Source: Burkholderia pyrrocinia (lineage in GTDB: Bacteria; Pseudomonadota; Gammaproteobacteria; Burkholderiales; Burkholderiaceae). From it: 64,000 bases of DNA. Within the stretch, counting starts at the first letter, position 1; each line of letters begins with the position of its first letter. The translations under genes were made by a program, and so were the position numbers. The DNA lies in assembly GCF_003330765.1 (NCBI RefSeq), contig NZ_CP024902.1, forward strand, positions 1,922,001 through 1,986,000, given 5' to 3'. Positions 1 through 42,207 of this stretch are shown here, in pieces. The notes below the pieces were generated by a model that saw nothing but the letters and a program-made list of their open reading frames with translations, had not been told where the DNA came from and made no database searches.

Positions 1-2
1 TG

Positions 3-1778
3 ACGCGCGTCGACGCGTGGCTGTGCGAGTTGAAGGAAGCGCAGATTCGCGATGGGCTGCACGTGTTCGGTGTGTCGCCGGCCGATCGCCAGCGACGCGA
101 CACGCTGCTCGCGCTCGCGCGCTTTCCGGTCAGCGACGGCAAGGGCCCGCGCGCGGGGCTGATCGGTGCGCTCGCGCGCGATCTCGCGCTCGGCGACGGC
201 TTCGATCCGCTGTCGGCCGACTGGGCCGCGCCGTGGGCCGGCCCGCGTCCGGCGATCCTGCAGGCGCTCGACGCAGCGCCGTGGCGCCATGCGGGCGATA
301 CGCGCGAGCGGCTCGAACGGCTCGCGCAGCACTGGCTGGACGGGCTGTGCGCGGCCACCGGCGGCAACCACGACACCGACGCGACACCGCCCGGCGAATG
401 GCCGCAGACGCTCGCGGTGATCGAACGCGTCCGCTCGACGCTGATGCCAGCGCTCGACGCATGCGGCGGCGAGGAAATGCGCCAGTTGCTGCGCGGGCTC
501 GACGGCCGCTTCGTGCCGCCGGGGCCGAGCGGCTCGCCGTCGCGCGGCCGTCCCGACGTGCTGCCGACCGGCCGCAACTTCTACTCGGTCGACACGCGCG
601 CGGTGCCGACCCAGGCCGCGTGGACGCTCGGCCTGAAATCCGCGCAGCAACTGATCGAGCGCCATCTGCAGGATCACGGCGACTATCCGCGCGCGATCGG
701 CCTGTCCGTATGGGGCACGGCGACGATGCGCACCGGCGGCGACGACATCGCGCAAGCGTTCGCGCTGCTCGGCGTGCGGCCGAAATGGGCGCACGGCAGC
801 CATCGCGTGACCGACTTCGAGATCCTGCCGATCGAGATCTTCGACCGGCCGCGTATCGACGTGACGCTGCGCGTGTCGGGCTTCTTCCGCGACGCGTTCC
901 CGAACCTGATGCACCTGTTCGACGCAGCCGTGCAGGCCGTCGCCGCGCTCGACGAGCCCGAGGAACTGAACCCGATCCGCGCGCGCATCGAGCGCGAACG
1001 CGCGAAATGGATCGCTCAGGGCGTGCTGCCCGACGAAGCGCGGCGCCGTGCCGGCTGGCGCGTGTTCGGTTCGCGTCCGGGCAGCTACGGCGCGGGCCTG
1101 CAGGACCTGATCGACCAGCGCCGCTGGCAGACCGACGCCGATCTCGCGGAAGCCTACCGCCAGTGGGGCGGCCACGCGTACGCGCAGAACAGCGCGGGCG
1201 ACGCCGCGCCCGACGTGTTCGGCGAGCGGCTGGCCGCGATCGACGTCGTCGTGCAGAACCAGGACAGCCGCGAGCACGACATCCTCGATTCGAACGACTA
1301 CTACCAGTTCCAGGGCGGGATGACGGCGGCCGTGCGGCACCTGTCCGGGCAGCAGCCGAGCCTCTACCACGGCGACCATGCGAACCCGGCCGCGCCGAAG
1401 ATGCGCACGCTGCGCGAGGAGATCGCGCGCGTGATCCGCTCGCGCGTCGTCAACCCGAAATGGCTCGACGGCGTGAAGCGCCACGGCTACAAGGGCGCGG
1501 CCGAGATGGCCGCGACCGTCGACTACCTGTACGGCTATGACGCGACCGCGCGCGTGCTGTCCGACCACCAGTACGCGCTCGTCGCCGACGCCTACCTGTT
1601 CGACGACGACACGCGCGCGTTCCTCGAACGGCACAATCCGAAGGCGCTGCACGGCATCTGCGAACGCTTTGTCGAGGCGATGCAGCGCGGCCTGTGGCAG
1701 CAGCCGGGCGACTATCGCGAACGGATCGAATCGGTCTGGCTCGCGAGCGAACAACTCCAGGAAGGGGAACGGCGATGA
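3..1778 (+). CDS. cobN: Cobaltochelatase subunit CobN, C-terminal part (5' end outside window)
   Basis: This is the large subunit of the cobalt chelatase, which inserts Co2+ into the corrin ring (hydrogenobyrinate a,c-diamide in the aerobic route) in an ATP-dependent complex with an AAA+ ATPase and a VWA-domain partner. The frame is open from base 3, so the gene starts before the window; 591 codons are visible of a family that is usually about 1,200-1,400 residues. The CobN/BchH type is recognised from stretches such as WGTATMRTGGDDIAQAFALL, GSYGAGLQDLID and the RVVNPKWLDGVKRHGYKGA region near the end. Its TGA overlaps the ATG of the ATPase gene by 4 nt (ATGA), so the two chelatase genes are almost certainly co-translated. 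Confidence is high for the family; the N-terminus cannot be judged. Confidence 0.95.
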   Translation, partial: TRVDAWLCELKEAQIRDGLHVFGVSPADRQRRDTLLALARFPVSDGKGPRAGLIGALARDLALGDGFDPLSADWAAPWAGPRPAILQALDAAPWRHAGDTRERLERLAQHWLDGLCAATGGNHDTDATPPGEWPQTLAVIERVRSTLMPALDACGGEEMRQLLRGLDGRFVPPGPSGSPSRGRPDVLPTGRNFYSVDTRAVPTQAAWTLGLKSAQQLIERHLQDHGDYPRAIGLSVWGTATMRTGGDDIAQAFALLGVRPKWAHGSHRVTDFEILPIEIFDRPRIDVTLRVSGFFRDAFPNLMHLFDAAVQAVAALDEPEELNPIRARIERERAKWIAQGVLPDEARRRAGWRVFGSRPGSYGAGLQDLIDQRRWQTDADLAEAYRQWGGHAYAQNSAGDAAPDVFGERLAAIDVVVQNQDSREHDILDSNDYYQFQGGMTAAVRHLSGQQPSLYHGDHANPAAPKMRTLREEIARVIRSRVVNPKWLDGVKRHGYKGAAEMAATVDYLYGYDATARVLSDHQYALVADAYLFDDDTRAFLERHNPKALHGICERFVEAMQRGLWQQPGDYRERIESVWLASEQLQEGERR

Positions 1779-2851
1779 CCGATCCGACGATGCACCGCGC
1801 CCGCGCGGTTTTTCCGTTTGCGGCGCTCGTCGCGCAGGCTGCGTTGCAGCAGGCGCTGCTGCTCGCCGCGATCGACCCGTCGCTCGGCGGCGTGCTGGTG
1901 AGCGGGCCGCGCGGCACTGCGAAATCGACCGCCGCGCGCGGTCTCGCCGAGTTGCTGCCCGAAGGGCAGTTCGTCACGCTGCCGCTGTCGGCGAGCGACG
2001 AGCAGGTGACGGGCACGCTCGATCTCGCGCATGCGCTGGCCGAAAACGGCGTGCGCTTCCGGCCGGGCCTGCTCGCGCGTGCGCATCTCGGTGTGCTGTA
2101 TGTCGACGAAGTGAACCTGCTCGCCGACGGGCTCGTCGACACGCTGCTCGACGTCGCCGCGAGCGGCGTGAACATCGTCGAGCGCGATGGCGTGTCGCAC
2201 GCGCACGACGCGCGCTTCGTGCTGGTCGGCACGATGAACCCCGAGGAGGGCGAGCTGCGTCCGCAGTTGCTCGACCGCTTCGGGCTGATGGTCGAACTGG
2301 AGAACTGCTTCGATGCCGCGCAGCGCGAGCGGATCGTGAAGGCGCGCCTCGCGTTCGATCTCGATCCGGATGCATTCCGCGCACGCCATGCACCTGCGCA
2401 GCGCGAACTCGGCGACCGGATTCACGCGGCGCGCGCACGGCTGGCGACGCTGGATCTCGACGATGCGGTCCATGCGCGTGTCAGCGCGCTGTGCATCGAC
2501 GCGGCAGTCGACGGGCTGCGCGCCGATCTCGTGATGCTGCGCGCCGCGCGCGCACTCGCCGCGCTGGAACAGGCCGATGCGGTGACGGTCTCGCATGTGG
2601 CGCGGGTGGCCGAAGCGGTGCTGCGGCACCGGCGCCATGCGGGTGTGCCGCCGGCTTCCGGATCGTCGCAGCCAAGCGATGAACCCGACGATCGCCCGCC
2701 GCCGGAGGCGCACCGGCGGCCTGACGACCCACCGGGCGCGACCCGGAACGATGCCACGGCATCGCAGGGCGACTGGGGTTACCTGCCGCCCGAGCCGGCC
2801 GGGCTACGCGACGTGAAAAGCGTGGTGCCGCTGCCGCTAAAAAAACGCTGA
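1775..2851 (+). CDS. ChlI/BchI-like AAA+ ATPase of the cobalt chelatase (short product of chlD-type gene)
   Basis: The 358-residue product is a magnesium-chelatase-type AAA+ ATPase expected to power metal insertion by the adjacent CobN. Walker A is GPRGTAKST (residues 44-52) and Walker B is LYVDE (108-112), followed by the sensor region around GTMNPEEGELRPQLLDRFGL. The start ATG at 1775 overlaps the cobN stop, which fixes it better than any upstream codon. The C-terminus is Pro/Arg/Asp rich and ends PLPLKKR where a run of seven A (2839-2845) meets TGA at 2849. A VWA-domain frame continues immediately in the -1 register, so this is probably both a stand-alone small subunit and the N-terminal half of a ChlD-like medium subunit. 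No separate chlI or cobS is present in the window. Confidence 0.9.
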   Translation: MTDPTMHRARAVFPFAALVAQAALQQALLLAAIDPSLGGVLVSGPRGTAKSTAARGLAELLPEGQFVTLPLSASDEQVTGTLDLAHALAENGVRFRPGLLARAHLGVLYVDEVNLLADGLVDTLLDVAASGVNIVERDGVSHAHDARFVLVGTMNPEEGELRPQLLDRFGLMVELENCFDAAQRERIVKARLAFDLDPDAFRARHAPAQRELGDRIHAARARLATLDLDDAVHARVSALCIDAAVDGLRADLVMLRAARALAALEQADAVTVSHVARVAEAVLRHRRHAGVPPASGSSQPSDEPDDRPPPEAHRRPDDPPGATRNDATASQGDWGYLPPEPAGLRDVKSVVPLPLKKR

Positions 2852-2899
2852 GCCATCGAGCCGGCGCCGCCGCGAACACCGTTCGCGGTCCTCGATGGC
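2839..2899 (+). other. Programmed -1 frameshift signal: slippery A7, spacer, two-part stem-loop
   Basis: In the zero frame the site reads CTA AAA AAA CGC TGA, so bases 2839-2845 form the ideal X XXY YYZ heptamer A AAA AAA. A 6-nt spacer (2846-2851, containing the zero-frame TGA) precedes a 9-bp perfect stem, GCCATCGAG (2852-2860) with CTCGATGGC (2891-2899). Inside it sits a second perfect 8-bp stem, CCGCGAAC (2870-2877) with GTTCGCGG (2881-2888), closed by ACC. Slippage by -1 continues into the VWA frame with no stop. The A7 run could also cause transcriptional slippage. The geometry matches known -1 signals, and frameshifting in chlD genes has been described in B12-producing prokaryotes that lack a separate small-subunit gene. 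Confidence 0.82.
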
Positions 2900-3528
2900 A
2901 GTCAGGCGCAGCCGCGCGCGTGCCGGGCACGGCGCGCGCCGGCACGGCCGTCGCATGGCCGGCGACGCTCGCCGCGAAGCGCGGCGGCCCGCTGCATCAC
3001 GGCCATCTGCGCTTCCGTAAACAGTCTGGCGCGCCGCACGCGCTGCATTGCTTCGTGCTCGACTGCTCGGCGTCGATGCTGTCGCATGATCGGCTCGCGC
3101 TGGCGAAGGGGCTGATCGTCGCGTATTTCGATCGCGCCGCGCGCGATCGCGTCGAAACCGCGCTGATCTGCTTCGGCGGCAACGGCGCCGCGCGGCGCTT
3201 CGGCCCGGCCGTGCCGCGCTGGTGGAATGCGCGCTGGCTCGAACCGGTCGACGGCGGCGGCGGCACGCCGCTCGCGGACGGCATCGCGGCCGCCGCGCAC
3301 TTGCTCGCGCGCGATGCGCGGCGCGAGCCCGACAAGCAGCGCTGGCTGTGGGTGCTGTCCGACGGGCGCACGCGCGAGACGCCGGCGAAACCCGCGGCGG
3401 CCGATCACGTCGTGTTCGTCGACTTCGACGATGCGGCCGTGCGGATCGGGCAGGGCGCACGGCTCGCCGATGCGTGGGGCGCGCAGTGGGTGACCGCCGA
3501 CGCGCTTTGCACGGACGTCGCGGGCTGA
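2845..3528 (+). CDS. VWA-domain half of ChlD-like chelatase subunit, reached by -1 frameshift
   Basis: The -1 frame is open from the slippery A7 run through to TGA at 3526-3528. It encodes 227 residues that, joined to the ATPase half, make a 584-residue protein of normal ChlD/BchD length. A VWA domain is evident from the MIDAS motif DCSASM after HCFVL, the GGGTPLADGI segment and LWVLSDGRTRE. The ChlD medium subunit scaffolds the ATPase ring and contacts the large subunit, here CobN. The only start-like codons in this frame before the VWA domain (for example GTG 2920) have no convincing Shine-Dalgarno sequence, which favours frameshifting over independent initiation. A separately translated VWA protein remains possible. 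Confidence 0.85.
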   Translation, partial: TLSHRAGAAANTVRGPRWQSGAAARVPGTARAGTAVAWPATLAAKRGGPLHHGHLRFRKQSGAPHALHCFVLDCSASMLSHDRLALAKGLIVAYFDRAARDRVETALICFGGNGAARRFGPAVPRWWNARWLEPVDGGGGTPLADGIAAAAHLLARDARREPDKQRWLWVLSDGRTRETPAKPAAADHVVFVDFDDAAVRIGQGARLADAWGAQWVTADALCTDVAG

Positions 3529-17657: not shown

Positions 17658-19113
17658 CGGTGGTGTCCTGGCTGTGCCGCGCGTCCGTGAGTCGGGCCGC
17701 GGCCTGGTCAATCGTCAGATGGCGCGCGAGCGGGGCGCCGAGGCCCGCGGCGGCGTCGCGCCGGTAAAGGTCGTAGTGCGCGGGCGCAACCGCGACGAGC
17801 GTGTGCGTCGCGGGATGCGGCAGCGCGCAGTGGCGCTCGCAGCCGGTCAGGTGCACGTCGACCGGATGGCCGATGCGCGCGGCGAGGACGAGCGCGTCGT
17901 GTTTCGTGTCGGCGCGCGCTTTCGCGCAGCCCGCGCTGCCGCTGCACGCGACGAGCATCGCAAGCGGGTCGGACGACGCGCATACGAGGCCGAACGACGC
18001 GAGCGCATCGAGCATGGCCGGCGCGCGTTCGTGCAACACGCCGTGCATGAACATGCCTTGCCATGGCGTCATCGACAGCGTGCCGTTGCCGTCGGCGTCG
18101 GCCAGCGCGGCGAGCCGTTCCAGTTGCGTCGCGTCGAGCCGCCCGAGCGCGAATTGCGCGCCGACGCTGCAGCGCGCCGTGTCGAGCGACGGGCGCGCGC
18201 CGAAACGCAGCGCCGGGTCGGCGCGCATGCGCCGCCAGCCGGCCAGCGCCGGATCGGCCGCGAGCGGGAAGGGCAGGTAATGTTGCGCGCGTTCGAGCAA
18301 CGCGCATTCTCCGCAGGTGGCAAGCAATACCCGCATCCGCGTGACGTCGGCAGGCGCAAGATCGAGGAACGCGAGCAGCAGCGCGCGGACGAGCGCGACG
18401 CCCTGGTCGGGCGCCACATCGACCGACGCAGGCCGGTCGCCGTGCGCGACCGGCGGGCAGCCGGCCAGCCCGGCCGCGATGCGTACCGTGCCGTCGTCGC
18501 GACGCCAGGCAGCCAGCCAGATGTCGTGCGGATGATCGAGTGCCGCAACCGATTCGCCGCCGTCGAACTGGATAGAGAATTTCGGCGACAACTCGCCGCG
18601 GCGCGGCTCGCACGCCAGCATGTCGAGCAGCGGCATCGCGATCGCGCGGCTGTCGATGAGCGCGGCGGGGTCGTGGCCGACGAGCGGGCTGAGCATCACA
18701 TTGCGGACGTCGTCGCTCGCGGCGAGCGCGGCTGCGTCGGCGGTGGCGTCGATGCGTGGGCCGAGACCCGCGTCGAGCAACGCGCGCGTCAGCGCGTCGG
18801 CCGCGCCGTCGCGAATGCCGCGCAACTGGAGATTCGCGCGATTGGTCGCGTCGATCGCACCGGAACCGTAGGCCCGCGCGGCGGCGGCGATCGCGCGCGC
18901 CTGGCGCGCGTCGAGCCGGCCGCCCGGCAGCTTGACCCGGCACAGCCCGCCGTCGGCGGCCGCGACCACGCGCACGAGCCCCGGGCAGGCCGACGGGCGC
19001 ACGAAGGGCGACGCAGGAATCGAAACGGGGGCGGAACTCAACGGGATACCGGGACAGTGTCGGGCCGCGGCCAACGCATCGGTACACCCCGCCCGAAGCC
19101 GACTGGCACGCAC
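17650..19113 (-). CDS. cobG: Precorrin-3B synthase CobG
   Basis: The first gene of the riboswitch-controlled minus-strand operon, encoding an oxygen-using precorrin-3B synthase of the nitrite/sulfite-reductase fold. The late Cys pattern ACSGSAGC ... TGCERHC is the siroheme/[4Fe-4S] binding type of this fold, and the two half-repeats each have a ferredoxin-like domain. Length to the GTG at 19113 is 487. The first 30-40 residues are weakly supported, because this GTG lies right after the riboswitch without a clear Shine-Dalgarno; a start near 19043 is an alternative. CobG marks the aerobic B12 route. Confidence 0.88.
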
Positions 19114-19121
19114 GCACTTTC

Positions 19122-19283
19122 TGGCCGGCAGGTCTCCTGGCTGACAGGTCGGCGCCGGCTCCCGGCCTTCCCGGTCGAACCAGTGGCATGAGGGGGGAGA
19201 TCGGCTCGCTGTCTACAGTTGCGGGGGCAGCCACAGCGGCGCGCGGCGCGCCCTGTGTTCCCTCTTCGGCCCCGAAGGGCACC
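19122..19283 (-). promoter_or_regulatory. Cobalamin (adenosylcobalamin) riboswitch
   Basis: Read on the minus strand the conserved elements appear in order: GGTGCC near 19283, GAAGAGGGAACACAGG, the core GCTGCCCCCGCAACTGTA, GCCACTGG (the B12-box side), CCGGGAAGGCC, and finally CAGCCAGGAGACCTGCC at 19132-19148 (minus strand). This is a typical B12 riboswitch about 160 nt long. It ends roughly 10 nt before the first cobG start codon, so it can repress the cobGHI-cbiG/cobJ operon when cobalamin is abundant. It is not oriented to control cobL on the plus strand. Confidence 0.95.
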
Positions 19284-19503
19284 GGCGAACGAACGGCCGT
19301 AGGATACCCGATTTCGACCGCGGTTCGCGACCGGAAGGCCGTTCGCGACGGACGAAGCGGAGGAGGGTCCGGCGCCGGCGGGCCGGCAGATGAAACGCGG
19401 GATGGAACACGGTACCATGCCGTTTTTCGCAATGCGGACGGCTGCGCCGGCACTTTCACGGCCGCGCGGCGACACGATGGAATCGAACGATGGGGAAGGG
19501 TGC

Positions 19504-41987: not shown

Positions 41988-42207
41988 AATTCGCGTCGAG
42001 ATCAGCGCGCCGAGCGGTGCGCTGCGACCGAAACGGACTTTTTTTACGATCCGTCCCATTCAGTTTCAGACTCGCCCTACAGCGTTGGCGATCTGAATTC
42101 CTTAAAGTAGCGTCCATCAGGAATTCAGAAACCGACCGCAAGATAGGGCGGATGCACGAACCCGTCACGTGCCGAGTCGCTGGCGTAAGCAGCCCCCGAA
42201 TTCAGTC

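Follow-up and report, generated by a model that had tools for sequence, protein, structure and literature searches.

A cobN-coupled chelatase gene of Burkholderia pyrrocinia with a conserved, probable -1 ribosomal frameshift signal of the fs-chlD type

We examined a gene for a ChlI-like ATPase that directly follows cobN within a 64,000-nt stretch of Burkholderia pyrrocinia DNA (the window), and conclude that it very probably undergoes programmed -1 ribosomal frameshifting of the fs-chlD type. In 113/113 Burkholderiales loci examined (63 from Burkholderia and 50 from other genera), an in-phase A_AAA_AAR heptamer precedes the stop by one codon and the VWA part that follows is encoded in the -1 frame; the stem beyond the stop pairs and covaries among them. 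The kind of gene is already known: it belongs to the published fs-chlD family, and a 2013 paper on that family names Burkholderia. What this analysis adds, within the literature searched, is a genus-wide count, a covariation test of the stem, and the observation that fused relatives linked to cobN carry no second ChlI-type gene.

Layout of the gene and parts of the signal

The host genome (8.0 Mb, 3 contigs) was searched with profiles and holds a single CobN match, the gene beside the one studied, with no second cobN. The stop of cobN overlaps the ATG at 1775 as ATGA (1775-1778), bearing out the coupling to cobN proposed in an earlier, sequence-only reading of this DNA. That reading had also proposed an in-phase A7 heptamer, a 6-nt spacer holding the zero-frame stop, a 9-bp stem enclosing one of 8 bp, both perfectly paired, and a -1 frame running without a stop into a VWA domain; each of these parts was recovered from the sequence at the positions collected in Table 1.

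Table 1. Features of the studied gene, its signal and its surroundings (unprefixed positions are those of the window)
Feature	Position	Strand	Basis or remark
cobN, 3' part (large chelatase subunit), entering from outside the window	1-1778	+	CobN-Mg_chel, E 6.3e-217; cobalto_cobN, 804 bits
Zero-frame ORF, 358 aa, ChlI/BchI-like AAA+ ATPase (predicted short product)	1775-2851	+	domain matches
Slippery heptamer A_AAA_AAA, in phase with the zero frame	2839-2845	+	codons CTA AAA AAA CGC TGA
6-nt spacer CGC TGA, ending in the zero-frame stop (2849-2851)	2846-2851	+	read directly
Outer 9-bp stem, 5' arm	2852-2860	+	fold; pairing and covariation tests
Nested 8-bp stem, 5' arm	2870-2877	+	fold; covariation test
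Nested 8-bp stem, 3' arm	2881-2888	+	fold; covariation test
Outer 9-bp stem, 3' arm	2891-2899	+	fold; pairing and covariation tests
-1 frame past the slip site (C-terminal part of predicted long product)	2839-3528	+	TIGR02442, 64.5 bits, profile 457-589
VWA domain in the -1 frame	3052-3366	+	VWA_2, E 1.6e-6, residues 72-176 of the -1 piece
Cobalamin riboswitch ahead of NicO, cobW, cobN and the studied gene	L036:15346-15610	+	
Second cobalamin riboswitch, facing away	L036:14983-15220	-	toward methylase, CbiG_C, CobO-like and CobB-like genes
Cobalamin riboswitch elsewhere in the window	19110-19301	-	RF00174, 100 bits
CobS-like gene	L071:12442-13482	-	contig C2 of the host genome (G000), pair near 1,910,700-1,913,500
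CobT-like gene, beside the CobS-like gene	L071:10727-12400	-	as above

The zero-frame and -1 pieces were searched separately against profiles. The first matched TIGR02442 (378 bits at profile 88-348), TIGR02030 (317 bits), AAA_lid_2 and Mg_chelatase, and TIGR02442, named "putative cobaltochelatase", was matched by both pieces in their order along the gene. Within the AAA+ part, G44-P-R-G-T-A-K50 and D111-E112, which we take to be the Walker A and B motifs, were invariant among 15 aligned relatives. The -1 frame has a stop at 2722, is then open to 3525 and ends at TGA 3526-3528. A long product of 584 residues, as predicted earlier, is reached by arithmetic only (357 + 227 codons), and the joined protein is a prediction. 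The gene thus has the fs-chlD arrangement of a ChlI-like AAA+ ORF followed by a -1-frame VWA part, with a single-copy cobN directly upstream. Rfam gave no match up to E 1 between window positions 1700 and 3700, and a search for plasmid copies of the gene found none, with one Halolamina match over 10% of the query.

Conservation of the slip site and covariation of the stem

Neither the A7 run nor the fold is telling when taken singly. Two A7 runs were seen in the window against 0.57 expected, a number reached in 14/100 shuffles (the sole other run lies at 42039-42045 on the minus strand), and the single-sequence fold of 2836-2910 (-33.6 kcal/mol, z -2.57) was equalled in 1/200 shuffles; A7 count alone and fold z-score alone are weak evidence. 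The excess over chance comes from conservation. The gene was found at E <= 1e-40 in 63/65 Burkholderia genomes, and neither of the remaining two (G016 and G057, the latter 82% complete) had a CobN match. At all 63 loci the A-run begins 10 nt ahead of a TGA and it is the -1 frame that encodes the VWA part; the heptamer is A7 in 61 and A6G in 2.

The same layout was present in 47/47 loci examined from other Burkholderiales (7 order-level matches above 59% identity, and 40 non-Burkholderia loci chosen from a family-level listing in which 208/398 genomes had a match), and in 3/3 more reached through cobN (L144-L146). The stop stood at equal distance in 113/113 loci, as TGA in 112 and TAA in one (L121). 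Order-level loci at 43-50% identity (L081-L101, 21 loci) were rejected as frameshift genes: near their stops there is no run of 5 or more A, and none has a -1 VWA part adjoining. In three of them (L082, L085, L088) a VWA match lies about 1.2 kb further along, and three (L087, L091, L092) are long single ORFs; the set probably comprises fused genes or ChlI/BchI genes of the photosynthetic type.

At class level, 15 loci were read in addition to the window's own. Five are frameshifted (L148-L152), with A_AAA_AAR in the corresponding position, 9 are continuous (L153-L161) and 1 has no VWA match (L162). In the distant loci L151 and L152, A_AAA_AAG is drawn from a seven-A run in another phase and is still one codon before the stop, a pattern by which the position of the stop seems to be constrained. 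Among the best 80 of 575 named relatives, 71 had the frameshifted layout, 8 were continuous and 1 was truncated (L199); in the 70 of these that were tallied, the heptamer was A7 (36) or A_AAA_AAG (34), with TGA in 43 and TAG in 27. The named loci overlap the other genome sets, and counts of the sets are not additive. The closest ChlI part among the named matches listed was that of Burkholderia arboris (93% identity), records nearest the window's own genome perhaps being excluded.

The linker that holds the signal is variable, but the signal itself ranks with the most conserved DNA in the gene. Of 1742 22-nt segments scored over 62 Burkholderia loci, the twelve highest-ranking all started at 2828-2839, and among the 52 closest loci the segment at 2839 ranked first. 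One locus with Ns in the stem (L062) was omitted from the 62-locus count and was scored as a miss in the pairing count given next.

The 9-nt arm after the stop paired at 9/9 positions in 94 of the 113 Burkholderiales loci, at 8/9 in 17 and at 7/9 in one, with the Ns of L062 making up the last. Since the partner arm was chosen as the best-matching segment of the sequence that follows, decoy and swap controls were needed; 9/9 pairing arose at 524/20085 decoy positions of the same genes and in 222/2034 swapped arms. The arm starts were 39 nt apart in 80/94 loci and 30 to 57 nt apart in the others. Covariation was assessed in an alignment (A2) of 74 distinct gap-free rows from 92 of the 113 loci, with arms 39 nt apart and at least 6/9 pairs; 91.1% of its cells pair, a figure to be read with a filter that favours paired rows. 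Two-sided changes occupied 116 cells against 42.8 (sd 5.8) in shuffles, and the covariation score was 0.276 against 0.130, each unmatched in 500 shuffles (0/500). Sliding the partner by 1-3 columns lowered pairing to 25.6-45.1%. The outer helix paired in 98.0% of cells, with two-sided changes at 4/9 pairs, and the nested helix is weaker (83.3% of cells; two-sided changes at 5/8 pairs). Two measures stood out less clearly from the shuffles: the number of pairs showing a two-sided change (9 against 7.0, reached in 33/500 shuffles) and that of further pair types (28 against 23.9, 7/500). RNAalifold, given the A2 rows, returned much the same two helices, with 14 pairs of which 8 had two-sided changes. 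The covariation shows that the stem is under selection, and the gene shares with fs-chlD genes a downstream RNA structure, here paired and covarying, with a putative stimulatory role. The conservation of the slip site and stems across Burkholderiales, with compensatory changes, which the earlier reading had named as its check, was thus borne out (the slip site as A_AAA_AAR, the outer stem mostly in full).

Ribosomal slippage and the competing explanations

We infer from these observations that ribosomes slip at this site. A ribosome with lysyl-tRNAs on AAA AAA would meet the stem 6 nt ahead, and some share of ribosomes, at whatever rate, would slip back one base and read on into the VWA part, giving a 584-aa ChlD-like medium subunit. 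Those that do not slip would stop one codon on, giving the 358-aa ChlI-like small subunit anticipated earlier. Both proteins, if made, would share the AAA+ domain, and would assemble with CobN to serve it as the ATPase subunits of an aerobic cobaltochelatase.

The principal competitor is transcriptional slippage, by which RNA polymerase would add an A within the run so that some mRNAs encode the long protein directly. A seven-A run within a GC-rich gene would suit it, as would the longer runs of a few relatives (A8 in L103, A10 in L149). Against this, the run is six A followed by G in 2/63 Burkholderia loci and in 34/70 of the named loci described above, and a covarying stem at a fixed 6-nt distance suits slippage by the ribosome; ribosomal slippage needs a downstream stem, and polymerase slippage is not known to. 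Because of the A_AAA_AAG versions and the covarying stem, we consider slippage by the polymerase improbable. It is still less probable that the VWA part is a separate gene started independently past the stop. The window does offer a GTG at 2920 in its -1 frame, and a GTG matching it is present in 37/113 loci; an ATG was found in 29 and no start codon at all in 14, and the VWA frame is -1 in 113/113. As a start codon with a Shine-Dalgarno-like motif precedes the VWA part in just 3/113 loci and 14 lack a start codon, a separate VWA start is disfavoured; the conserved start and ribosome-binding site that the earlier reading held would speak against frameshifting were not found in these loci. Sequencing error or gene decay is scarcely credible, since the identical break falls at the same place in 113/113 loci of separate genomes with both domains kept, even though continuous relatives exist (19 loci).

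With programmed ribosomal frameshifting thus preferred, comparison can be made to described systems. PMC3711429 (2013) describes a cluster of 23 fs-chlD-type genes from six genera including Burkholderia; three cassettes tested in E. coli gave frameshifting of 63, 40 and 10%, the 10% cassette having seven A, and fused homologues are mentioned. Other papers on the family are PMC9227772 (2022), which builds on fs-chlD, and PMC5009743, which has a section on it. The present gene resembles these in its two parts, the -1 shift at a poly-A site, the downstream structure and the cobN link, in keeping with the earlier suggestion that it fits reported chlD frameshifting, and no distinguishing feature was found among those tested; its host genome also has a CobS/CobT-like pair. 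The dnaX frameshift, as described in PMC3711429, likewise has an A-rich slip site (A_AAA_AAG in many relatives here), a downstream hairpin and two subunits from one gene; unlike dnaX, an AGGAG-like (Shine-Dalgarno-like) element is absent from the 20 nt upstream of the window's slip site. Continuous ChlI-VWA proteins (the TIGR02442 type) have the same domain order and are matched by both pieces, and differ in having a single frame without a break, as in L142 (760 bits) and L143 (774 bits). In the literature searched, no paper turned up that treats chlD frameshifting and cobalamin jointly in Burkholderia. A further paper, in Mol Biol Evol in 2020, is said to deal also with fs-chlD, or "magnesium chelatase", -1 frameshift genes.

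Cobalamin context and fused relatives

The studied gene is preceded on its strand by a cobalamin riboswitch, a NicO transporter, cobW and cobN, and from their order and strand these probably form one operon with it. This context points to a cobaltochelatase. A CobN match was present in 24/24 frameshifted genomes against 2/21 others (45 tested), and the two others (G468 and G473) have a continuous ChlI-VWA gene adjoining cobN. Of the non-fused loci among the best 80 of 575 named relatives, 71/72 had a cobN match in the flanks fetched.

The earlier reading had seen no separate small-subunit gene. This holds for the window and for the ChlI-type genes of the genome (one TIGR02030 match, E <= 1e-20); candidates of another type, a CobS-like and a CobT-like gene, lie side by side on contig C2, where no cobN accompanies them. 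The first scored 535 bits, below the cut-off of 558.55; the CobT-like gene, sought in the window's genome, passed the PF06213 cut-off and reached 278 of the 759 bits set for TIGR01651. This pair was considered as the true partner of CobN and rejected, as the occurrence of CobS-like genes is not tied to that of CobN: strong CobS-like matches (E < 1e-150) were found in 8/24 frameshifted genomes and 4/21 others. Because those four have no CobN match, the pair may have another job; some role beside CobN is conceivable as well.

Nineteen continuous (fused) loci were examined, and in 17/19 an in-phase A_AAA_AAR is absent from the whole ORF. Single-frame orthologues, which the earlier reading had offered as a possible sign of sequencing error, thus exist, mostly without the slip site. 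A TIGR02030 search (E <= 1e-20) of 46 genomes gave one match each (including 19/19 of the fused genomes), except for a frameshifted genome, G1107, with two. Four fused genes adjoin cobN (L196, L142, L143, L161), and for most other fused loci no cobN match was seen within the flank of about 1.5-3 kb that was read. L196 (also L267) is from Acidovorax sp. SUPP3334, where the continuous ChlI-VWA gene stands beside cobN. Among 17 genomes of its genus group the gene occurs in 5, of which four are frameshifted with A7 and one (L196) is continuous with no A-run there; the alignment, for this one draft genome, suggests that the signal was lost by deletion. In a quick tree of 66 ChlI parts, in which many forks are weak, the frameshifted or fused state requires at least 2 changes, and L196 was placed inside the frameshifted group.

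Since fused, cobN-linked relatives have no second ChlI-type gene, two products are perhaps not required, and these relatives weaken the presumed need for two subunits. By likeness to them and to the signal-less Acidovorax gene, we raise as a tentative and rather doubtful proposal that the short protein is not obligatory and the long ChlI-VWA protein alone serves CobN; the frameshift would then set the amount of VWA-bearing subunits or their share of the ring, the stop one codon on would be part of the signal, and B12 synthesis could be regulated at this step. The gene is a clearly readable example of a metal chelatase with two predicted subunits from one gene, and because frameshifted and fused cobN-linked versions coexist as natural variation, even in one genus, the need for the short product can be tested with natural sequences.

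Two placements in the 66-part tree disagreed with the source labels. The ChlI part of a "Paucimonas" metagenome bin (L232) grouped with Pseudomonas, and that of Pseudomonas benzenivorans (L195) grouped with Denitromonas. This may represent a mislabelled bin, or it could be real and represent gene transfer.
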